A stretch of 64,000 nt of DNA, taken from the NCBI RefSeq assembly GCF_028681615.1, contig NZ_JAQUHV010000001.1, forward strand, positions 124,001-188,000, written 5' to 3'. The notes under the pieces were generated by a model that had not been told where the DNA came from, did no database searches, and was given only the letters and a program-made list of their open reading frames with translations. Shown here one piece after another: positions 53,742 to 63,820 of the stretch. How positions within the stretch are numbered: position 1 is the first letter of the stretch; each line of letters starts with the position of its first letter. Source of the DNA: Sulfuricurvum sp. (lineage in GTDB: Bacteria; Campylobacterota; Campylobacteria; Campylobacterales; Sulfurimonadaceae). The translations under genes were made by a program, and so were the position numbers.

Positions 53742-55112
53742 TCAGTGTTGGTTAATAATAACCTTGGCACTCTCAATGACATCGGTAATATTGTCATGAA
53801 TCCATTTGGTATCCATCCACTCTTCCGGACGAACTTCAATCCCTTGTACCAAAACACCGAAATGGAGGTGATCTCCCATCGCATAACCGCTGAGGCCGGT
53901 TTTAGCGATCTCTTGTGCAGCATTGACACTATCGCCTTCTTGTACATGCAATTCCGAGCAGTGTCCGTAAAGAGTATACAAACCGAATCCGTGGTCTATA
54001 ATCGGCAAATTCCCATATATCCCGTTAGGCTGTGCGAAAACGGTTTTACCTCCGTTTGAAGCAATGATTGATCCCATATGGACACTGGCCAAATCCAACC
54101 CCATATGATAGGCTTGAGAAATATTTTGCTGCCCTTTGTAGCTGTAAATACGGTGATCTCCAAAATCAGCTACTTTCTGACCGTTGACTAACGGATAAAA
54201 AGGCTGCGGATTAAAATCGGTAATCATCGTATCGGATACTTTTGAAGTGATCTCATGGATGATTTTTTCATTGTCCGCACGTACTTTTTCGTTGATGATA
54301 CGGAATTGTTCCAATCGGTCGGTTACCCCGGCGGTTTGATCATACGTATTAGCCAGTTCTGCGATCTTACCTTCTAAGAATGCATCGCTGAGTTCGATAT
54401 TCGATGTACGGTAAACATGGTCTTTGAGACGAAGAGGCACTGTGCTTTTAGCCACATTTCCGGCACTGTCACGTGCCACGACAGTAGCACTAAAGCTTTC
54501 CGATTGTACCGGCCATGCAACCAAAGAAGCGTAATAACCCGCTTTCATAAACGGTTGGGCAATAAACGTCTTACCGAAATTGGTTTCGATTTTCAGGCTT
54601 TGCAAATGGGCATCTTCAGCTTTAAAGATAACAATTGCCGTCCCGCCCTTTTGGATTTTATACGAGTTACCGATAATCGCAAGCGTCGGCTGACGTTGAT
54701 CGATCACAAGGGTATACTCTTGTTTAAAGGTATTCCCCATAAAGAGACCCCATAAACTGTTATCCGTTGCTTTAATAGTGAGAGTTACAGATGTTGATTC
54801 AACACGACGAACCCCTTTTGGCGGAAGGATATCAAACGCTCTTTTCGTCTCATGAGACGGTGTATTGTCTTCAACGACTACCCATTCATCATGCGGTGTC
54901 GAAAGGGTCGCTTTAAACGACTTGAGCCCGCTGCTGTCTTGTACGCTCACATGAATAGGATCTCTAAAATTCCAATAACCGTCTTGAGAGATGGTTACCT
55001 GAGGAGCTTGACGCTCAAACTTCGGCGAAAAGCCCATAAAACCGACGGCTCCTAATACTAAAACCACCAATATCCATCCAATAATTCCTGAACCGTTTCG
55101 GCCTCTTCTCAC
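53742..55112 (-). CDS. Membrane-anchored M23 peptidase
   Basis: A 456-residue LytM-type peptidoglycan endopeptidase. One N-terminal membrane helix (about 9-29) is followed by a long periplasmic region and the catalytic domain at about 330-440. The zinc motifs are intact: HMGLD (HxxxD) and DHLHFG (HxH). Homologues in Campylobacter and Helicobacter trim crosslinks to give curved or helical shape. It starts at GTG 55112, overlapping the DHH gene by 4 bases. Confidence 0.92.
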   Translation of the reverse strand: MRRGRNGSGIIGWILVVLVLGAVGFMGFSPKFERQAPQVTISQDGYWNFRDPIHVSVQDSSGLKSFKATLSTPHDEWVVVEDNTPSHETKRAFDILPPKGVRRVESTSVTLTIKATDNSLWGLFMGNTFKQEYTLVIDQRQPTLAIIGNSYKIQKGGTAIVIFKAEDAHLQSLKIETNFGKTFIAQPFMKAGYYASLVAWPVQSESFSATVVARDSAGNVAKSTVPLRLKDHVYRTSNIELSDAFLEGKIAELANTYDQTAGVTDRLEQFRIINEKVRADNEKIIHEITSKVSDTMITDFNPQPFYPLVNGQKVADFGDHRIYSYKGQQNISQAYHMGLDLASVHMGSIIASNGGKTVFAQPNGIYGNLPIIDHGFGLYTLYGHCSELHVQEGDSVNAAQEIAKTGLSGYAMGDHLHFGVLVQGIEVRPEEWMDTKWIHDNITDVIESAKVIINQH

Positions 55113-56041
55113 TCAAACTCCTTTTTAATCATCAGCGTCACACTCTCTGTGAACTCTGCAAAATTTCCCTGTTTTAAATGTGTCCCCGCTCGGTGTAGAT
55201 GCCCACCGCCGCCAAAACAACCCATAATTTTCGAAGCATCAATGGTTCCATCGGTACGCAACGAGAGCTTCAATCCTCCGCAAGGGTGTTCGATTTGAAT
55301 CATCGCGGCACGAACACTGCGTATTCCCAATGCATCCTCTATCACTCTTTTACATTCGTCAACATCCGCTCCGGTCTCTTCTAAAAGAGCGCGTGATACT
55401 TCGAAAAGAGCTAACTGCCCGTTTGCCAAGAGTTTCATCTGCTTCATAAGTGCACCGCGTATTCGAAGCGATGAGAGCGATCGACGGTGATAAAGCCATT
55501 CGATACATTTTGCGTGCTCAGCACCCAGTTCAATAAGATTATATGCTATTGAAAACGTTTTGGCACTGCATTCGGGTACACTAAAACATTTGGAATCATC
55601 CATCAGTCCCGCATAAAGCGAAAGTGCCATTTTACCATTGATTTTTATACTGTTGGCAACAAAAAAATCATATACCACTTCGGTCGTACTGATTGCCGAG
55701 GTATCGATGATAGTGTAAGTACCGAAATAATCGTTACTGATGTGGTGATCGATATTGATCAGGGGCAACGATTTGTTGATCCCCAGCCGTTCATAGCTGC
55801 CGCAATCAAAACTGATCATACAATCCGCATCTTCGGGAAATCGGTCGGTGATATTATCAAACCACGGTAAAAAAGCGAGATTCGGGTTGACTTCACTCGT
55901 GGCACAAAAAAGGGTGATTTTTTTTTGGCTGCGAAGCAAATAGGAATAAAAAGCACATGCCGAACCTAACGAATCGGCATCAGGATTTTTATGTACGATC
56001 AATACAATATGTTGGGCTGAATCGATCAGTTTAAGCGGCAT
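55109..56041 (-). CDS. DHH-family phosphoesterase (NrnA-like)
   Basis: A 310-residue cytoplasmic phosphoesterase. The DHH domain has VHKNPDADSLGSACAF, SFDCGSYERLG and NIDHHISNDYFG, the last being the DHH signature; the C-terminal DHHA1 domain has GGGGHLHRAG. Relatives degrade nanoRNA, pAp or cyclic dinucleotide products such as pGpG, which would fit with the two GGDEF proteins in the window; this is inference. A leader hairpin overlaps its ribosome site. Confidence 0.92.
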   Translation of the reverse strand: MPLKLIDSAQHIVLIVHKNPDADSLGSACAFYSYLLRSQKKITLFCATSEVNPNLAFLPWFDNITDRFPEDADCMISFDCGSYERLGINKSLPLINIDHHISNDYFGTYTIIDTSAISTTEVVYDFFVANSIKINGKMALSLYAGLMDDSKCFSVPECSAKTFSIAYNLIELGAEHAKCIEWLYHRRSLSSLRIRGALMKQMKLLANGQLALFEVSRALLEETGADVDECKRVIEDALGIRSVRAAMIQIEHPCGGLKLSLRTDGTIDASKIMGCFGGGGHLHRAGTHLKQGNFAEFTESVTLMIKKEFE

Positions 56042-56104: not shown

Positions 56105-58090
56105 TTAAATATCAAGCTTTATTTCTTCAGAAGTATAATAGGTAATACGGTTACGTCCCATCTCTTTGGATCGGTACATTGCTGCATCGGCGTGACGGAG
56201 AAGAATATCGATTTCTTCGCAATCATCCGGGAATAACGTCGCACCGATACTGACACCGATCGTTATTGTTATTCCATCTACCTCAATCGGCTCTTTTAAC
56301 GCTTCGAGTATCCGTACCAAAAGCTCATGCGCGTCTTCACTGTTAATATCGCTTAGAAGAATCACAAACTCATCCCCGCCCATACGGGCGATAATGTCAC
56401 TTTGACGCAGTTGTTGAGCTAACCGCGCTCCCGCCTTCTGTAAAATTCGGTCTCCCATTGCATGACCGTATCCGTCATTCACCTGTTTAAATCCGTCCAA
56501 ATCCAAAAAAGCCACAATGGCTTTGGAGCCTTTTCGTTTGGAAAAAGCCAGCATCTGTTCCGCCAATGTCATATACATATGACGGTTAGGAAGATTGGTC
56601 AGCGGATCGTAATTGACCAAACGATGAAGCTGCTCTTCTTGTTTTTTATGTTCCGTAATATCGCTGAAAATACCGATATAATTTTCAATATCGCCATCCG
56701 TATTGCGTACAGCATCAACACGTAAAAACTCAGCATATTCCTGCCCGCTTTTTTTCTTATTCCAAATCTCGCCGCGCCATGATCCTTCTCTCTCTAGCGC
56801 CTGATCGATTTGAGCGTAAAAAAACGGGCTATGCCGTCCTGAGCGCAAAATAATCGGTTTTTTCCCGATCACATCTTCTCGTGTATAACCCGTTAATCCG
56901 CAAAAAGCTTCATTGACGTCGATAATAATCTTAGACGCATCGGTTATGATAATACCCTCACGGGAATTATGAAAAACATTGGCAATCCGTCTGAGATATT
57001 TTTGCGTCTCTTCTCGAATAGTGATCTGTTCTTCCAATGCCTGAGACTCTTTTTTAAGTGTTTTAGTCAGTTTTCGCAATCGGTATGCTAAAAAAAGCAA
57101 GATCGCACTTAATGTCCCCAATAACACAATAATACTCACTGCATATTTTCGGATAACGTCATTCACCGTAAATGCCGGGGTTTTATCAAAGGGGGGAACT
57201 CTCATCTCTTCCATAATGGCCCGTATCCCCTCATACGCAAGAGGAACACTCCAGCCATAATAACCGGCGTTTTTCGGTATTTCTGATCCGCGCGGAAGCG
57301 AGAGCAATGCAACTGCAACCTGATTGGCTAATTCGGGATCTGTCTCTTTGAACGCTACAAACGGCCATTCCGGGTAAAGCTGCGTTGAGAGGGCCTGAGG
57401 GAAATTTTCGATTTTCTGAGGGTTGATAATTTTAAAATCATCCCGATTGATTTTTCCCTCTTTTGCCATCTTTTCCAAAACGCCGGTACGGATAAATCCC
57501 GCATCCGCAGAACCGCTTTCAACAATATAGACAACTTTGTCATGCGGCATATCGGTAAATGTTACGTTAGAACTTCGAGAAATATCAATTCCCTTTGAAA
57601 GTAAAACATTGCTTTGCGCTAAATACCCTCCCAACGAGAGTTCATCGACAGCGGCTATATTTTTACCCTTTAAATCTTCTAAGTTATTAATGTCCTTCCG
57701 ATCGCTTCGGGATATGATAACCCCTCCAAACTCTTTGAGCTCATTACCGCTGACATTAGCACGTATAAGGGTGGCAATTCTGGTTGCATTGTATAGTGCC
57801 GAAAAATAGACATAATGTTCCGGATTGGTAAAGGCGAAGTCGAGCTCTTTTTTAGCAACGGCTTCATTGAATTCTTTATAACTAAAAGGCTTGATAATAA
57901 AAGAGTGGGAAGGGATTTTCTGATCTAAATAATGAGCAAGAGGCGTCCATTCATTTAGGGTATCTTCTTTCGAGCGAAAGGCTAAGACACCTATGACTAC
58001 TTGGTGTTTATCCGCAGAAGCGGATAAAGCATGAAGAGGTACAATACAAGTTAAAAGGGTAAAAAAAACACTAATAAAAGCCTTCTTCAT
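56105..58090 (-). CDS. Periplasmic PhnD-like sensor with PAS and GGDEF domains
   Basis: A 661-residue inner-membrane protein. In order: signal peptide (about 1-25); a PhnD-type solute-binding domain (about 30-300; VVIGVLAFRSKEDTLNEW, FAFTNPEHYVYF, LKGKNIAAVDELS); membrane helix (about 315-335); PAS domain (about 370-485); GGDEF domain with the active motif at 571-575 and an RxxD inhibitory site five residues before. It is predicted to make cyclic di-GMP in response to a periplasmic ligand. The ATG at 58090 follows GAGGT; a start at 58102 adds four residues. It lies 54 bases after the DUF302 gene. Confidence 0.92.
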   Translation of the reverse strand: MKKAFISVFFTLLTCIVPLHALSASADKHQVVIGVLAFRSKEDTLNEWTPLAHYLDQKIPSHSFIIKPFSYKEFNEAVAKKELDFAFTNPEHYVYFSALYNATRIATLIRANVSGNELKEFGGVIISRSDRKDINNLEDLKGKNIAAVDELSLGGYLAQSNVLLSKGIDISRSSNVTFTDMPHDKVVYIVESGSADAGFIRTGVLEKMAKEGKINRDDFKIINPQKIENFPQALSTQLYPEWPFVAFKETDPELANQVAVALLSLPRGSEIPKNAGYYGWSVPLAYEGIRAIMEEMRVPPFDKTPAFTVNDVIRKYAVSIIVLLGTLSAILLFLAYRLRKLTKTLKKESQALEEQITIREETQKYLRRIANVFHNSREGIIITDASKIIIDVNEAFCGLTGYTREDVIGKKPIILRSGRHSPFFYAQIDQALEREGSWRGEIWNKKKSGQEYAEFLRVDAVRNTDGDIENYIGIFSDITEHKKQEEQLHRLVNYDPLTNLPNRHMYMTLAEQMLAFSKRKGSKAIVAFLDLDGFKQVNDGYGHAMGDRILQKAGARLAQQLRQSDIIARMGGDEFVILLSDINSEDAHELLVRILEALKEPIEVDGITITIGVSIGATLFPDDCEEIDILLRHADAAMYRSKEMGRNRITYYTSEEIKLDI

Positions 58091-58102
58091 CTTATACCTC
58101 AA

Positions 58103-58144
58103 TTGTGGACAGTATAAGAAGATTAATATTAAGAAATAGTTAAA
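58103..58144 (-). promoter_or_regulatory. Possible -10 for the sensor diguanylate cyclase
   Basis: On the minus strand TATACT (plus-strand AGTATA, 58111-58116) stands about 20 bases before the ATG at 58090. No good -35 lies 17 bases upstream. The sensor gene may therefore have its own weak promoter or be read from the sox-linked genes ahead of it; there is no obvious terminator in this gap. Confidence 0.3.
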
Positions 58145-59056
58145 CTACTCCACTGTACTTTGAAGAACACTTTCAAAATCTTTTTGTGCTTGCATTAACA
58201 CTTCTTTAGCTTCAGCATCATTCACAGCGGCACTGCTCATCCAGTTATAAACTCCCGGGAATCCCATAACGATTTCAGCAGCATCTTTTTTCTTATACAC
58301 CATCAATGTACACGGTGCAAAAGCCGATGCTTCCGGACGGGTTTTAGCTACCGTGTAAATAACTTTGAGCTTGCAGATGGAGTATGTATCGTAAAAACTA
58401 AACGGACTCTCCTCCCCGTTTTCAGTCAACATGAACTGATAATCGGTAAAGTTTGAAAGGACAAATCCGGCAGGTTTAAGCCCCTCTTCGAGCATCATTT
58501 CGGCATCGTCTTTATCGCTTTGCCAGTTTTTTACATCGGTCTTTTTCACAAATCGGGTCAACAGCTTCCCTTCAGCCGGTAATGAAGTGGCGCTCTTTGT
58601 TTGTTTCGTCGTTTTCGGAAGAACGGTTTTTAGCGTTGCAAAAACCTTTTTTTCGATCACAGTAAATTCGGGTGCTTTAAATCCGGCGATCTTTTGCATC
58701 GCATCGGCGCTCAAGACGGATACGTGCAGATCTTTTTCACCTTTACGTTGGTAGATTCCTACCCCCATCGGTACGAAAATACCGCCGTCCGGATGGCTTT
58801 TGACCAAAGAGGCAGCCTCTTTTTTAGGGATAACTGTCATTAAATTAAATACGGCAAAGTCGCTTTCTCCGAATTGTTTGTTGAACGGACCCGTCATCTC
58901 TGAGTCTGCCGCTATCACAAAACCATTGGCCTCAAATGCTTTTTCAATCATTGTCGGGGTCAGCTTTCCATCGGCGTTAGGCGCGCTGAAAAGGTGTAAG
59001 TCACCCCCAAAAAGGGACAAAAATCCCGCTAACACTACTAGTACAATTGCTTTCAT
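58145..59056 (-). CDS. Periplasmic protein with two DUF302-type domains
   Basis: A 303-residue exported protein: signal peptide at about 1-20, then two halves of similar pattern. The first (about 32-125) has IEKAFEANGFVIAADSEMTGPFN and VPMGVGIYQRKGEKDLHVSVL. The second (about 190-300) has AEMMLEEGLKPAGFVLSNFT and CTLMVYKKKDAAEIVMGFP. DUF302 proteins are small, function unknown, and often encoded with sulfur or metal genes. It follows the DsrE-like gene by 11 bases. Confidence 0.75.
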   Translation of the reverse strand: MKAIVLVVLAGFLSLFGGDLHLFSAPNADGKLTPTMIEKAFEANGFVIAADSEMTGPFNKQFGESDFAVFNLMTVIPKKEAASLVKSHPDGGIFVPMGVGIYQRKGEKDLHVSVLSADAMQKIAGFKAPEFTVIEKKVFATLKTVLPKTTKQTKSATSLPAEGKLLTRFVKKTDVKNWQSDKDDAEMMLEEGLKPAGFVLSNFTDYQFMLTENGEESPFSFYDTYSICKLKVIYTVAKTRPEASAFAPCTLMVYKKKDAAEIVMGFPGVYNWMSSAAVNDAEAKEVLMQAQKDFESVLQSTVE

Positions 59057-59067
59057 ACTAAAACTCC

Positions 59068-59502
59068 TTATGGATGGATATAAACGGCGCCCTCAGCGGA
59101 ACGCTCTATAATTTCTGCGATACCGGCACTGACAATCTCAACCCCGTCGATTAATTCTGAGGGTTGAATATTTTTAGTACGCATAGTATTTCCGCACGCA
59201 ACAAATTCAACCCCGTATTGTTGAAGTGCATCAACACGCGGGGCGAATTCTTTCTCTCTTTTCAAGACGGTACGTATACCGTGATAATACGCAACAATGC
59301 GCATATGCACTTTTTCCGGACCGTAAAACTTTAAGACATTGTTCGCGGTGCTAAGGACATGCTGAATCGTCTCATCATCTCCGGAGCTCACCCCTAAAAC
59401 AACCTCTCTGGGTTTGTCTATTGACGGCACCGGCTCAGCCAAGCGGGTATCCGCAAACACAGCAGATGCCAATACCAACAACAAGATCATTATCTTTTTC
59501 AT
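59068..59502 (-). CDS. Periplasmic DsrE-like protein
   Basis: A 144-residue exported protein with a signal peptide (MKKIMILLLVLASAVFA). The body reads REVVLGVSSGDDETIQHVLSTANNVLKFYG, HMRIVAYYHGIRTVL and VEFVACGNTMRTKNIQPSELIDGVEIVSAGIAEI, the pattern of DsrE/DsrF-like proteins. The cysteine in ACGNT is at the position used for sulfur transfer in some relatives. Start at 59502 by GGAG. It overlaps the metallo-beta-lactamase-fold gene by 4 bases. Confidence 0.82.
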   Translation of the reverse strand: MKKIMILLLVLASAVFADTRLAEPVPSIDKPREVVLGVSSGDDETIQHVLSTANNVLKFYGPEKVHMRIVAYYHGIRTVLKREKEFAPRVDALQQYGVEFVACGNTMRTKNIQPSELIDGVEIVSAGIAEIIERSAEGAVYIHP

Positions 59503-60407
59503 TTTTGCTCCCATTCCAACGTTCGATACGCTGCTTCTACATTTCCTCGGTGCATTGAATCGTACATATGCAACGTTTGGAAAGCCGGCATTTTGACTTT
59601 ATCGATTGTCTCTTCTATCCCTAATCCCTCATCAAGAGCTTTTCGGATTTCACTGCGCATCTCGCTTAAATACGCATAAGTCATATCGATTGCACCTTTA
59701 TCGGTACGATATCCATGCCCACCGACAATCGTTTTGGCACTGTAACCCTTTAACTCATCCAGTGCTGAAATCCAGCCGTTGATATCTCCCCCCTTGAGAG
59801 AGGGGACACGATCATTGAAGACAAGATCTCCGGCAAACAGAACTTGGGCCTTTGGGACAAATAGTACCATATCTTTGGCGGTGTGTGCCCGCTGTTTCAT
59901 AAAATGAAATTCCAGAATCTGATCCCCGATACTCAGATTTTCATCCGAAGTAATTATCTCAGACGGCAGTGTCGGAACAGTTTTAGCATACGCTTCGGGA
60001 GAGATATAGGTTTGCATTCGGGTCGGTTCACGCGTATCCGCGTTCACTTTGAAATCTTCTGAACCCAAAACTCTAACTCCCATTTGGGTAAAAAACCCGT
60101 TCCCGAGCCAATGATCGTCATGTACATGCGTGTTAACTACCAGAAGAACCGGTAACGGTTTGATCGCTTGCATCTTTTTGAATGCCGATGCCGCATAATT
60201 ATACGAAGAGCCGCTGTCGATAACAACATAGCCCTTCGCCGTATCAAGATAACAGGTGTTAACCATATTGCCGTTATTAGTCGTATTCATCGCTTCGGGC
60301 ATACCGAAAAAACAGGTCACTTCGGAAGTGATCTGTTTTGGGCTCAGCGGCAGTTCATACGCACTGAGCCCGATAACGAAGATACATAAAAGCAATAAAA
60401 ATCGCAT
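59499..60407 (-). CDS. Periplasmic metallo-beta-lactamase-fold hydrolase
   Basis: A 302-residue exported metal hydrolase with a signal peptide (about 1-16). The metal motif THVHDDHW (HxHxDH) is present, followed by RAHTAKDMVLFV and LVFNDRVPSLKGGDINGWI, then VGGHG. The DRVPSLKGGDI-type motif occurs in SoxH-like and quinoprotein-linked members. Candidate substrates are thioesters or sulfur intermediates, which the sequence does not settle. It lies 10 bases after the porin gene. Confidence 0.88.
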   Translation of the reverse strand: MRFLLLLCIFVIGLSAYELPLSPKQITSEVTCFFGMPEAMNTTNNGNMVNTCYLDTAKGYVVIDSGSSYNYAASAFKKMQAIKPLPVLLVVNTHVHDDHWLGNGFFTQMGVRVLGSEDFKVNADTREPTRMQTYISPEAYAKTVPTLPSEIITSDENLSIGDQILEFHFMKQRAHTAKDMVLFVPKAQVLFAGDLVFNDRVPSLKGGDINGWISALDELKGYSAKTIVGGHGYRTDKGAIDMTYAYLSEMRSEIRKALDEGLGIEETIDKVKMPAFQTLHMYDSMHRGNVEAAYRTLEWEQK

Positions 60408-60417
60408 CCTTTATCCC

Positions 60418-62019
60418 TTAAAAGAGGTAGTTGATCTCGAAACGGTATTCATCATATGATGCATAATCCGTTGTTGCTTGAGTCCCAAGAACAGGGCTTG
60501 TTCCCGTATACAGGTTGTCCGCATTTACTGTTGCAAAGCGGAATTTAAACTCAGTATTTGGAATTTCTTTGAATGTTTTCCACATATCAACATGAAAAAT
60601 ATCACGATCTGAGAATCCGCTAGAATAAGCTTTTCCTTCATCAAAATTCATATTCTCATAATCGGCGGCTACTTTGAAACCTTCGATAATGCCAGCTTTT
60701 CCAAAATCATACGTTGCTTTTACAGCCCAGCTTTTAGTGTTAGCAATCCAGTCTACCTGTGCCATCGAACGGGTATACCCACCTGTAGGAAATCCCCGCC
60801 ACGGAGCGATGATATCAGCGTCATTGGCTACTTTTGAATATCCAACTTGTAATGCGAGAGGACCGTTTTCCGCCACGAGACGTGCCATAATGATACTTCC
60901 GTCTACACTATCAGGATTCGTATAGTTTGCACGTGCATTAGCACGTTTTGCAGCATCAGGAAGACCACTACTATTAAAAGCAACTACATTACCACTCAAA
61001 GCAGCGCCCCCAATCGCACCGGCACCGTCATCCATCTGACGAAGATATCGGACACCAGGAGTCAGTGTCCATGCATCGTTCACTTTAATCTTATAATTGC
61101 CTTCAGTCACAAGGGTATTGAAAAATCCGCTGATTCCTACATATTCAGCATCAAGTTTCAAATTAGAAATCGATTTGTTAGAAGCCGTTAGTAATAGCAT
61201 TTCAGGATCTACATCCCCTCCAGCTTGACGGATGTTATAAACACTAAGACCTTTATGAACACCAGAATCATCATTCTCGTAGACTTTATCACCCTTCACT
61301 GCAACAGATGTGTCTCCTTGATCATAAGCTAATATACTATGAAATTCCTGGTGGTCACGTAGCTTTTGGCTCATGATATAACCTGCACGTAGTGTTGTAT
61401 TTGGAAGGTCTTTATTCTCCATAACCGCTGCTTCGAACGTATTTGGAATCATTTTTGTGTCATTGGTCGCGAGCATAATACTATCGATCCCTTGACGCCC
61501 GATTTTGACATCGGTTTTGCCGTGTTTATACTCTCCGTACGCTTCAGCAAATACACCAATGGATGCTTCTGTACCATCCGGACGTGTACGATAAGTATCT
61601 TTTCCTGATTTTCCATAGTTAGCAGTAAGTGTATTTGTAGTGTTGCTGACAGTATTTTCGCCTACCATCGGAACCGTTCCGTAAAATCCGACTGTTGCAC
61701 CAAAGCCTTTAAAAAATCCTGTTTTATAAACTAGACTTCCTCCAAGACCCCATTGATTATTGTCATGAGTACGTTTATAAATATCACTGTTTGTCAAATC
61801 TTCATTTTCCCAATCATACCAAAACATGTTCGAACGAAGGCGTCCATAAACTTCTCCTTTGGTAAACATTTCAGTGAATGAATTAACATCACCTGGCGCT
61901 TTAGTATATTCAACCTGATAATTATCTTTGAGCACGCGATCTTCTGTTTTAAGCGCATACGCCGACGTCGTCAATAAACATGCGGCAGCTGCTGCCATAC
62001 TAATCTTCATCATTTTCAT
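60418..62019 (-). CDS. OprD-like outer-membrane porin
   Basis: A 533-residue outer-membrane beta-barrel. Signal peptide at about 1-22 (MKMMKISMAAAAACLLTTSAYA), then alternating strands such as GEVYGRLRSNMFWYDW, FGATVGFYGTVP and ATYDFGKAGIIEGFKVAADYEN, ending in YRFEINYLF with the terminal phenylalanine needed for Bam insertion. The start at 62019 follows AGGAG; a longer frame to 62136 runs into soxB. The permeant substrate is unknown, but position suggests thiosulfate or another sox-pathway solute. Confidence 0.85.
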   Translation of the reverse strand: MKMMKISMAAAAACLLTTSAYALKTEDRVLKDNYQVEYTKAPGDVNSFTEMFTKGEVYGRLRSNMFWYDWENEDLTNSDIYKRTHDNNQWGLGGSLVYKTGFFKGFGATVGFYGTVPMVGENTVSNTTNTLTANYGKSGKDTYRTRPDGTEASIGVFAEAYGEYKHGKTDVKIGRQGIDSIMLATNDTKMIPNTFEAAVMENKDLPNTTLRAGYIMSQKLRDHQEFHSILAYDQGDTSVAVKGDKVYENDDSGVHKGLSVYNIRQAGGDVDPEMLLLTASNKSISNLKLDAEYVGISGFFNTLVTEGNYKIKVNDAWTLTPGVRYLRQMDDGAGAIGGAALSGNVVAFNSSGLPDAAKRANARANYTNPDSVDGSIIMARLVAENGPLALQVGYSKVANDADIIAPWRGFPTGGYTRSMAQVDWIANTKSWAVKATYDFGKAGIIEGFKVAADYENMNFDEGKAYSSGFSDRDIFHVDMWKTFKEIPNTEFKFRFATVNADNLYTGTSPVLGTQATTDYASYDEYRFEINYLF

Positions 62020-62053
62020 TCTTAACTCCTTAAGTTTTAATGCATCGCAGGGC

Positions 62054-63820
62054 TTAACAGCCCTTTGAACCTTTACGAGGACAACCGCAATCGTAATCGA
62101 GGATATCCACATTGCTGTGACCGTCGATATTGACATTTTTTTGACGTCGGATGTACGATGCCGTCACATCATAAACCGGACGGGTCAAAGACTCTCGTAG
62201 GTTGGTTCCTGCATTTTGCAAATTACCGCCCCATGAAGAGACTTTGTACGTTTTGTTATCATCCAAAGGTTTCCCTTTGACCAATATATTACTGATACGC
62301 TTACCACTCGGTGCACCGATTTTGATGCTGTACGTAACACCGCCCAAACGGCTCATATCCCCCCCTTGCTGATACAGCGGGTTCGGATTGAACACGTTAT
62401 CGGCAATATCTTCGAGGAGTGAGCGGATATGTTTACCGGTCAATTCAAACGTGTAGACATTAGGATAAGTGATCGCCGTCATATCATAGACACTGTCCAT
62501 AGTAATCGCGTCTCCGCCGAGTACCGTCGTTCCCCATCGATATCCCGGAGTAAACGAGATGTCCGAATCCATCGTATCGATGATCGCATCATTGATGAGT
62601 TCGTCGAACGGTGAATGGAAGGTATCACGTTTGTACAAGATGTTTTTGGTCACACCGAGTACTTCGCTAAACTCTTTCTCATGCGGAGCATACAGAGAGT
62701 TCACCAATTCGACCCCTTCAGGGTCAGCCGGGATCAAGTTTGCCGCTACCGGGATCAGTTTGTACTCATACCCTTTGACTTTATGGTTTTTGATATCGAT
62801 ATCCAAACGCCCGATATATTTACCATGGCTTCCCGCAATCACGATCACCGTACCGTTGATAACCGTCGGCTGAGGAGACGGGTCATGCGTATGTCCGCTG
62901 AGGATGAAATCGATCCCTTTGACTTGTCGCGCAACCTCTTGGTCAACGCTGAAACCGTCATGCGACAACACGACAACACAGTCCACTTTTTCCTCTTTAC
63001 GTAGTTTATCGACATACGTTTGAAGAGTATCCAAACGGAGACCGAAACTCCACCCTTGGGTAAACTCTTTCGGATTTGCCGTAGAGGTAAACGGAAACGA
63101 CTGACCGATGATACCGATCTTCGCACCGCCCCGTTCTTGAATCGTGTATGGTTTAAAAATCAACTCTTCGAAATCTTCGGCAAATGAATCATCTCCGATG
63201 ATATTTTGGGAGATAAACGTCGCATTTAGCATTTCGATCAGCTCTTTAACCCGTGTTTTGCCATAGGTAAATTCCCAGTGACCGACCATAACGTCGACAC
63301 CGAGGTAATTTTGCGCTTTAACGATTGCTTCACCGGTCGTTTTGAGCGCCAGACCTGTACCCTGCCATGTATCACCCGAGTCCAGAAGCATGACATTATC
63401 CGCCCCGCGCTCTTTTTTGATATGGTTGATGAGGGTTTTCATATGGGCGATCCCCCCCATTTTCCCGAATTTGTGTGCCAATGCATCAAAATTCATATGG
63501 GTATCGAAATAGGCATCGAGCGTTTTGCCTTTCATGCCGTAATGTTTTAAAAACGATTCACCGCACAAAAATCCGGGAGTTCCCGTAAGATTCGGTGCCG
63601 AAATCAGTGTCGAAGGCTCACGCCAGTACAGCGGTTTGATATGCGCATGCATATCACAGATATGCAACAGCGTCACATTTCCGCGGGCATTAAATGAATA
63701 AATATCTTTCAACCCTACCTCATCAGCCCGTTTCGGGGTTGAAGCGGCTGAACCAAGAGTCGGCAAACCGATCCCTAGTGCGGCGGCGATATGGAAAAAA
63801 TCTCTGCGTGATACGTCCAT
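62054..63820 (-). CDS. soxB: Thiosulfohydrolase SoxB
   Basis: A periplasmic dimanganese enzyme that releases sulfate from cysteine-S-thiosulfonate on SoxYZ. The 588 residues start with a twin-arginine signal (MDVSRRDFFHIAAALGIG). Metal ligands lie in HICDMHAHIKP, LDSGDTWQGT, MVGHWEFTYG, LSHDGFS and SGHTHDPSPQP. The protein ends in an unusual cysteine cluster CGCPRKGSKGC. GGGGAGAGT precedes the ATG. It follows the soxA fragment by 10 bases. Confidence 0.96.
   Translation of the reverse strand: MDVSRRDFFHIAAALGIGLPTLGSAASTPKRADEVGLKDIYSFNARGNVTLLHICDMHAHIKPLYWREPSTLISAPNLTGTPGFLCGESFLKHYGMKGKTLDAYFDTHMNFDALAHKFGKMGGIAHMKTLINHIKKERGADNVMLLDSGDTWQGTGLALKTTGEAIVKAQNYLGVDVMVGHWEFTYGKTRVKELIEMLNATFISQNIIGDDSFAEDFEELIFKPYTIQERGGAKIGIIGQSFPFTSTANPKEFTQGWSFGLRLDTLQTYVDKLRKEEKVDCVVVLSHDGFSVDQEVARQVKGIDFILSGHTHDPSPQPTVINGTVIVIAGSHGKYIGRLDIDIKNHKVKGYEYKLIPVAANLIPADPEGVELVNSLYAPHEKEFSEVLGVTKNILYKRDTFHSPFDELINDAIIDTMDSDISFTPGYRWGTTVLGGDAITMDSVYDMTAITYPNVYTFELTGKHIRSLLEDIADNVFNPNPLYQQGGDMSRLGGVTYSIKIGAPSGKRISNILVKGKPLDDNKTYKVSSWGGNLQNAGTNLRESLTRPVYDVTASYIRRQKNVNIDGHSNVDILDYDCGCPRKGSKGC

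Follow-up and report, generated by a model that had tools for sequence, protein, structure and literature searches.

Histidine kinases that carry a phosphonate-binding type of sensor respond to tetrathionate and thiosulfate, according to excerpts of PMC5408782 and PMC11293645. TtrS, a tetrathionate sensor kinase, and ThsS, a thiosulfate sensor kinase, resemble the protein studied here (P0001) in having a signal peptide followed by a single periplasmic sensor of the PhnD-like type and a helix ahead of the output, but the output of P0001 is PAS-GGDEF and not a histidine kinase. PtxB, PhnD and ArrX have the Pfam domain family of the P0001 sensor as well, and are separate binding proteins with the motif STS (PhnD and PtxB) or SFS (ArrX). 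The motif LYPxW, which is found in the P0001 sensor, is absent from PhnD and PtxB; the available ArrX fragment ends before the motif position. A diguanylate cyclase with periplasmic substrate-binding domains, CdgH of Vibrio cholerae, is described in an excerpt of PMC5431781. It differs from P0001 in having two tandem amino-acid-binding domains of another binding-protein family, the first of which binds arginine.

Sulfuricurvum kujiense oxidizes sulphur and is one of the species in which cyclic di-GMP (c-di-GMP) proteins are densest, as stated in a part of PMC10333796. Thiosulfate and c-di-GMP have been treated together in the literature, work on Acidithiobacillus included, and ttrS and diguanylate cyclases are named separately in an excerpt of PMC9100107. 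No paper joining a TtrS-like sensor to GGDEF was found in the open-access literature searched, nor one for Sulfuricurvum. If the interpretation proposed below is true, P0001 would be the first known case of a c-di-GMP enzyme controlled by thiosulfate or tetrathionate, as far as the open-access literature searched shows.

Gene and domain architecture

The gene is read from the minus strand of the analyzed stretch of DNA (the window, 64,000 nucleotides), with its ATG at 58090, preceded by GAGG, and its stop at 56105; the plus strand of the same stretch reads with many stops. Domain residues are given in P0001 numbering, which is the protein numbering plus 18:

56105 to 58090, minus strand: full gene (signal peptide, PhnD/TtrS-like sensor, one membrane helix, PAS, GGDEF), 661 aa
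57254 to 57994, minus strand: periplasmic Phosphonate-bd (TtrS-like) sensor domain, residues 51-297, Pfam E 4.6e-45
57080 to 57148, minus strand: single membrane helix, approximately residues 333-355, read by eye
56651 to 56986, minus strand: PAS domain, residues 387-498, Pfam
56147 to 56614, minus strand: GGDEF domain, residues 511-666, Pfam E 7e-45, with GGDEF at 589-593 and the inhibitory-site RQSD at 580-583

The Pfam matches are far above chance. Together with the alignment they agree with an earlier note on this DNA, which had described a Phosphonate-bd sensor fused through one helix to PAS and GGDEF with active and inhibitory sites intact. The signal peptide and the helix between sensor and PAS-GGDEF were recognized by eye in the translation, not by a prediction program. 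GGDEF, the inhibitory-site RxxD, FLDLDGF and ND are intact in all 12 aligned proteins, a set that includes the window's protein and not that of genome G015. By these residues P0001 is a predicted diguanylate cyclase with a periplasmic sensor and an intact active site. The span initially given for the gene, 56105-58144, takes in the gap behind the DUF302 gene and is here reduced to the coding part, 58090-56105; the stop of DUF302 and the ATG, on the same strand, are indeed 54 bases apart in the sequence.

Relationship of the sensor to TtrS

The NCBIfam TtrS model (NF040750) matched P0001 with 170 bits over residues 47-382, the sensor part only, and its cut-off of 750 was not reached. Neither were those of the PhnD model (65.5 bits vs 261.1) and of the broad phosphate/phosphite/phosphonate model TIGR01098, which with 96.7 bits against 112.05 came closest of the three to its own threshold. 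None of 298 genomes of the phylum exceeded 750 bits with the TtrS model, which served to find two of ten plasmid-borne kinases as positive control (E. coli, 961.2; Proteus, 937.6), while an Aeromonas kinase scored 385.1 and stayed below; all 10 kinases scanned as a whole matched the model along both sensor and kinase.

Sensor matches were found in 111 records of a plasmid collection, the best being Azospirillum sensor kinases (~35%). The best match with a named function was the plasmid-borne TtrS of E. coli, which is 32% identical over the sensor and adjoins ttrBCA. One Azospirillum kinase adjoins ttr-like genes, and other relatives in the kinase clade lie next to cytochrome c genes, to a flavoprotein and cytochromes, or to cadR, so the family is not solely concerned with sulfur. 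On Sulfitobacter plasmids (L077 and L078, 9100-12300), TtrS-like sensor hybrids adjoin the flagellar motor genes motA and motB.

A tree was calculated from 55 sensors, with the mis-framed row own_C1a left out, row G055 replaced, the proteobacterial rows taken from plasmid-collection records only and ThsS not among the rows. It separated 51 TtrS-like rows from PhnD, PtxB, ArrX and own_C3 at 99/99, with long outgroup branches flagged and a possibly false join of own_C3 and ArrX. The 12 rows of the P0001 group formed a clade (100/100) inside 23 Campylobacterota rows (99/96), which in turn joined the clade of ten kinases at 93/86, leaving P0001 outside the kinase clade. Judged by this placement, the P0001 sensor belongs to the TtrS-like branch and not with PhnD, PtxB or ArrX. 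The label “PhnD-type” used previously thus names the right Pfam family but is too coarse, and a plain PhnD sensor was rejected on the same split; of the features of a PhnD or phosphonate binding protein, the STS motif is replaced (S-L-G, with the His kept) and the model score is under the cut-off. A search for the C-P lyase PhnJ gave no match in the genome of origin, and the control search found PhnJ in E. coli. A search of the same genome for TtrA was likewise empty; it had no positive control and is hence uninformative.

Positions of the ligand pocket

Pocket positions were mapped by alignment to the ligand contacts of PtxB, as listed in an excerpt of PMC5700983, and not from a structure; an AlphaFold2 model of the sensor with 7 sequences had a mean pLDDT of 50.9. 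In 12 of 12 P0001-group rows, one Tyr of the PtxB pocket is kept as Y89, a second is replaced by Phe (F139), STS is replaced by S-L-G (S170-L-G-G in P0001) and the His is kept (H201). The kinase clade has A-F-G at the STS positions and keeps the His in one row out of ten. All ten of its rows also have two cysteines, which are missing from the other 45 rows (P0001 group, 0/12; other TtrS-like rows, 0/29). This pair is a feature of the present alignment, not one from the literature, and may matter for tetrathionate sensing. LYPxW is found in all but one of the 51 TtrS-like rows, the exception having LFPEW. Since P0001 differs from the kinase clade in lacking the cysteines and in keeping Ser, His and Tyr, and has LYPxW in common with it, its pocket appears to be of the TtrS-like build without being the pocket of TtrS.

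The same positions bear on the possibility that the enzyme senses something else in the periplasm, be it phosphite, phosphate, an organic acid or an oxyanion of arsenic, and that its place beside sox genes is merely positional, in a slot, flanked by the sox cluster and the DHH-lpxC block, that takes varied genes. We consider this possible but rather unlikely. The Ser, His and Tyr that are kept belong to a phosphorus-oxyanion pocket, PtxB (E 7e-12) and ArrX (E 2e-9) are among the nearest solved structures, and TIGR01098 is the model approached most closely; against this stand the change of STS to S-L-G, the LYPxW in common with the kinases and the lack of a PhnJ match.

Outputs of TtrS-like sensors in Campylobacterota

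At 1e-25, the TtrS model had matches in 43 of the 298 phylum genomes, in a search that scored 4 candidates per genome and may miss weak or further copies. The 33 rows that start in the sensor all end by profile position 361, and the ten kinases reach 482 to 554. Outputs were scanned in 23 of these 33 rows and in L053. All 24 proteins matched GGDEF (E up to 1e-5; one only partly), 8 of them matched EAL and 6 HD_5, and a histidine kinase domain was found in none of the 24. One sensor type is thus seen with two outputs: kinases in ten proteobacterial proteins, and c-di-GMP domains in the 24 Campylobacterota proteins examined.

Three such proteins are encoded by the genome of origin. Besides P0001 these are a PhnD-HD-GGDEF remnant (879 aa, 39% sensor identity to P0001) and a PhnD-PAS-GGDEF-EAL protein (1019 aa, 32% sensor identity) that is without the GG and His of the pocket; neither has a Sox match nearby. 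Queries for Sox, DsrE, DUF302, Ttr and sulfur-transport proteins likewise matched at none of the 23 other Campylobacterota sensor loci, within the stretch read and for ATG frames of at least 110 aa. This result fits a different ligand for P0001.

There are 63 GGDEF matches in the genome of origin, so a GGDEF neighbor of sox genes is not a rarity, and adjacency to sox on its own was rejected as proof of a sulfur role. At two of the other Campylobacterota loci (L105, 3097-6592; L108, 6131-10524), the sensor gene adjoins a transporter of the SLAC1 family, supported by Pfam on L105 only, together with a small secreted protein that by eye resembles a P460 protein. L108 also has a frame at 247-1158 that looks CysD-like by eye.

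Genomic neighborhood and distribution in the genus

The genes adjoining the sensor gene in the window are the following:

62054 to 63820, minus strand: SoxB-like protein with Metallophos and 5_nucleotid_C domains
60418 to 62136, minus strand: OprD-family porin
59499 to 60407, minus strand: metallo-beta-lactamase fold protein
59068 to 59514, minus strand: DsrE-family protein
58145 to 59056, minus strand: DUF302 protein, the upstream neighbor
55109 to 56041, minus strand: DHH-DHHA1 protein, first of the housekeeping block, with its own conserved TATAAT element

The sox-linked surroundings reported earlier were recovered, with the DUF302, DsrE, metallo-beta-lactamase, OprD and SoxB-like genes upstream on the same strand. 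The name SoxB for the protein at 62054-63820 is our assumption from the earlier note and the context, and the metallo-beta-lactamase fold protein is presumably SoxH-like. Just past the window edge, the run continues upstream on the same strand with proteins of the SoxA, SoxZ and SoxY families and a cytochrome c that by its position would be soxX. The source organism is probably a sulfur-oxidizing bacterium; six relatives were recovered by DNA similarity, five of them named Sulfuricurvum and one Campylobacterales, all metagenome assemblies. Downstream, the DHH-DHHA1 gene is followed by M23, lpxC, tsaB, thrB and infB, all named from sequence. We take the DHH-DHHA1 protein to be NrnA-like; enzymes of this kind can degrade pGpG, a breakdown product of c-di-GMP. 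At L088 (4138-5947), a histidine kinase and a response regulator (Response_reg and Trans_reg_C) stand at the head of the run from soxX to soxB and are likely to regulate sox.

Among 36 other genomes of the genus, 12 carry the gene, all in the same slot and 11 of them intact, as found by a search that scored up to 19 candidates per genome and may miss weak or further copies. All 11 intact orthologs stand beside the whole run from soxB to DUF302. SoxB was found in 31 of the 36 genomes, 11 with the intact gene and 20 without, and none of the five genomes without a SoxB match (G005, G008, G015, G019 and G027) has a whole gene. This contrast proves little, because the genes are linked and the genomes related.

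DUF302 and DHH adjoin without the sensor gene in 12 genomes, 36 to 100 nt apart (six read in sequence); in G022, at the end of a contig, some 195 nt separate the two. Five genomes have the slot filled otherwise, as listed for loci L054-L068: an extra DsrE in G001; a cytochrome P460 gene with a divergent, opposite-strand PAS-GGDEF in G010 and G021 (L054, 6739-8271; L055, 6991-8567; P460 by Pfam on L054 only); other frames in G032; and, on the other strand in G023 (L068, C180, 655-5038), a dCache_3-HAMP-MCP-CZB chemoreceptor with two Sulf_transp proteins. The slot was judged in 30 of the 36 genomes, all but G003, G005, G006, G008, G019 and G033. Such varied contents, and the 20 of 31 soxB genomes lacking the intact gene, are what a merely positional link to sox would give, but the alternative occupants include two sulfur-transport proteins and an additional DsrE.

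The fixed position next to DUF302 and DsrE, kept in 11 of the 12 orthologs (with a tandem gene between in two), would also suit a sensor that reads a protein and not a free ion, for instance a loaded periplasmic sulfur carrier or the DUF302 or DsrE neighbor itself. By analogy, such an arrangement would resemble NspS-MbaA, an input-output pair for c-di-GMP described in an excerpt of PMC8967002. We think it improbable: all 12 proteins retain the ligand-type positions of the pocket, and the pair DUF302-DHH occurs without the sensor in the 12 genomes above.

Still more improbable, in our judgment, is a diguanylate cyclase gene that comes and goes with hardly any specific sulfur-related role, in a genus where c-di-GMP proteins abound. 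Its presence in a third of the genomes (12/36), the many GGDEF matches, the c-di-GMP protein density of S. kujiense (excerpt of PMC10333796) and the tandem genes in G009 and G030 would agree with this, but across orthologs the sensor is about as conserved (64-92% identity) as the GGDEF domain (63-97%), in contrast to the more variable membrane helix (24-96%), and the pocket positions are constant. The tandem PAS-GGDEF genes lie just upstream of the ortholog (G009: L044, 10993-12003; G030: L049, 8026-9033) and are 46% and 57% identical, respectively, to the output half of P0001.

Loss of the sensor core in G015

The genome with the twelfth ortholog, G015, is a natural control: it is missing the pocket as well as most of the cluster. 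No SoxB match was found in this genome at 1e-40 (93% complete, 4% contaminated). The contig reads flhB-like gene, OMP, a 43-residue DUF302 remnant, the diguanylate cyclase and DHH; the stretch from flhB to OMP is too short to hold soxX to soxB, and neither the metallo-beta-lactamase gene nor the DsrE gene was found at the locus. The cyclase (489 aa) has lost P0001 residues 60-235 in frame (176 residues), and with them every listed pocket position, while signal peptide, helix, PAS and GGDEF remain open. From residue 61 on it is 78% identical to the proteins of G014 and G004, both with intact sensor. A link between the loss of the pocket and that of the cluster is the simplest reading of this arrangement, and it argues against an unrelated ligand. 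G015 is a single assembled genome, however, in which regional decay or mis-assembly could have affected both, and it retains one SoxY and one SoxZ elsewhere.

Proposed function

We propose that P0001 may well be a diguanylate cyclase whose activity is set by an oxyanion in the periplasm, probably one of sulfur, a reading for which we see about an even chance. It is favored by the match to the TtrS model, the tree placement, the kinase analogues, the fixed slot, G015 and the lack of PhnJ, and weakened by the missing cysteines, the Ser, His and Tyr kept in the pocket, the 23 loci without Sox matches and the kinase relatives beside cytochromes, flavoprotein or cadR. The 63 GGDEF matches, the soxB genomes without the gene and the dependence on one genome with soxY and soxZ weaken it further. 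For the sulfur oxyanion assumed in the earlier note, what stands is that tetrathionate sensor kinases are closer relatives of the sensor than the binding proteins for phosphonate or phosphite are, and that the soxB-to-DUF302 neighborhood is kept in 11 of 12 orthologs, the remaining one having lost most of this run and its ligand-binding core with GGDEF still open. What counts against it is a pocket that lacks the cysteine pair of the kinase clade and keeps the Ser, His and Tyr known from that for phosphite, the lack of Sox or Ttr matches at the other loci, the 20 of 31 soxB genomes without an intact gene and the conserved -10-like element described below.

In the proposed mechanism, the enzyme would sit in the inner membrane and be gated by its TtrS-like binding-protein domain in the periplasm. 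The experimentally known sensor relatives (TtrS and ThsS) and the fixed sox neighborhood lead to a short list of candidate ligands. The domain would close around a small oxyanion of sulfur from the Sox pathway, with thiosulfate as the first candidate and tetrathionate or sulfite next, and the signal would cross the membrane along the helix and reach the GGDEF dimer by way of PAS. The ligand effect could be up or down. c-di-GMP, which generally acts on motility and attachment, might then tune either of these to the sulfur supply. Tentatively, and with less confidence, we extend this to a TtrS-like sulfur-oxyanion sensor that Campylobacterota would have wired to c-di-GMP in place of a histidine kinase, with the Sulfuricurvum copy reporting a Sox substrate and its pocket being lost along with soxB and the cluster.

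Transcription of the sensor gene

The gap upstream of the gene contains a conserved element:

58111 to 58116, minus strand: TATACT, -10-like element, 20 nt before the ATG, recognized by conservation only

In 11 of the 12 genes examined (the window's and 11 orthologs), TATACT precedes the start by 9 to 23 nt, namely in 10 of 10 genes directly after DUF302 and in one of the two behind a tandem gene. A scan for sigma-70 pairs found no site in the 54-nt gap, and it gave fewer promoter-like sites (5) than shuffled sequences did on average (7.6). The conserved TATACT suggests a promoter of its own, which would also be expected if the ligand were unrelated to sulfur. As to membership in a sox operon, the short same-strand gap and the element within it point in opposite directions. 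Own transcription of the sensor gene is accordingly predicted as likely, and read-through from sox as possible. The TATAAT element of the DHH gene is conserved also in genomes without the diguanylate cyclase.
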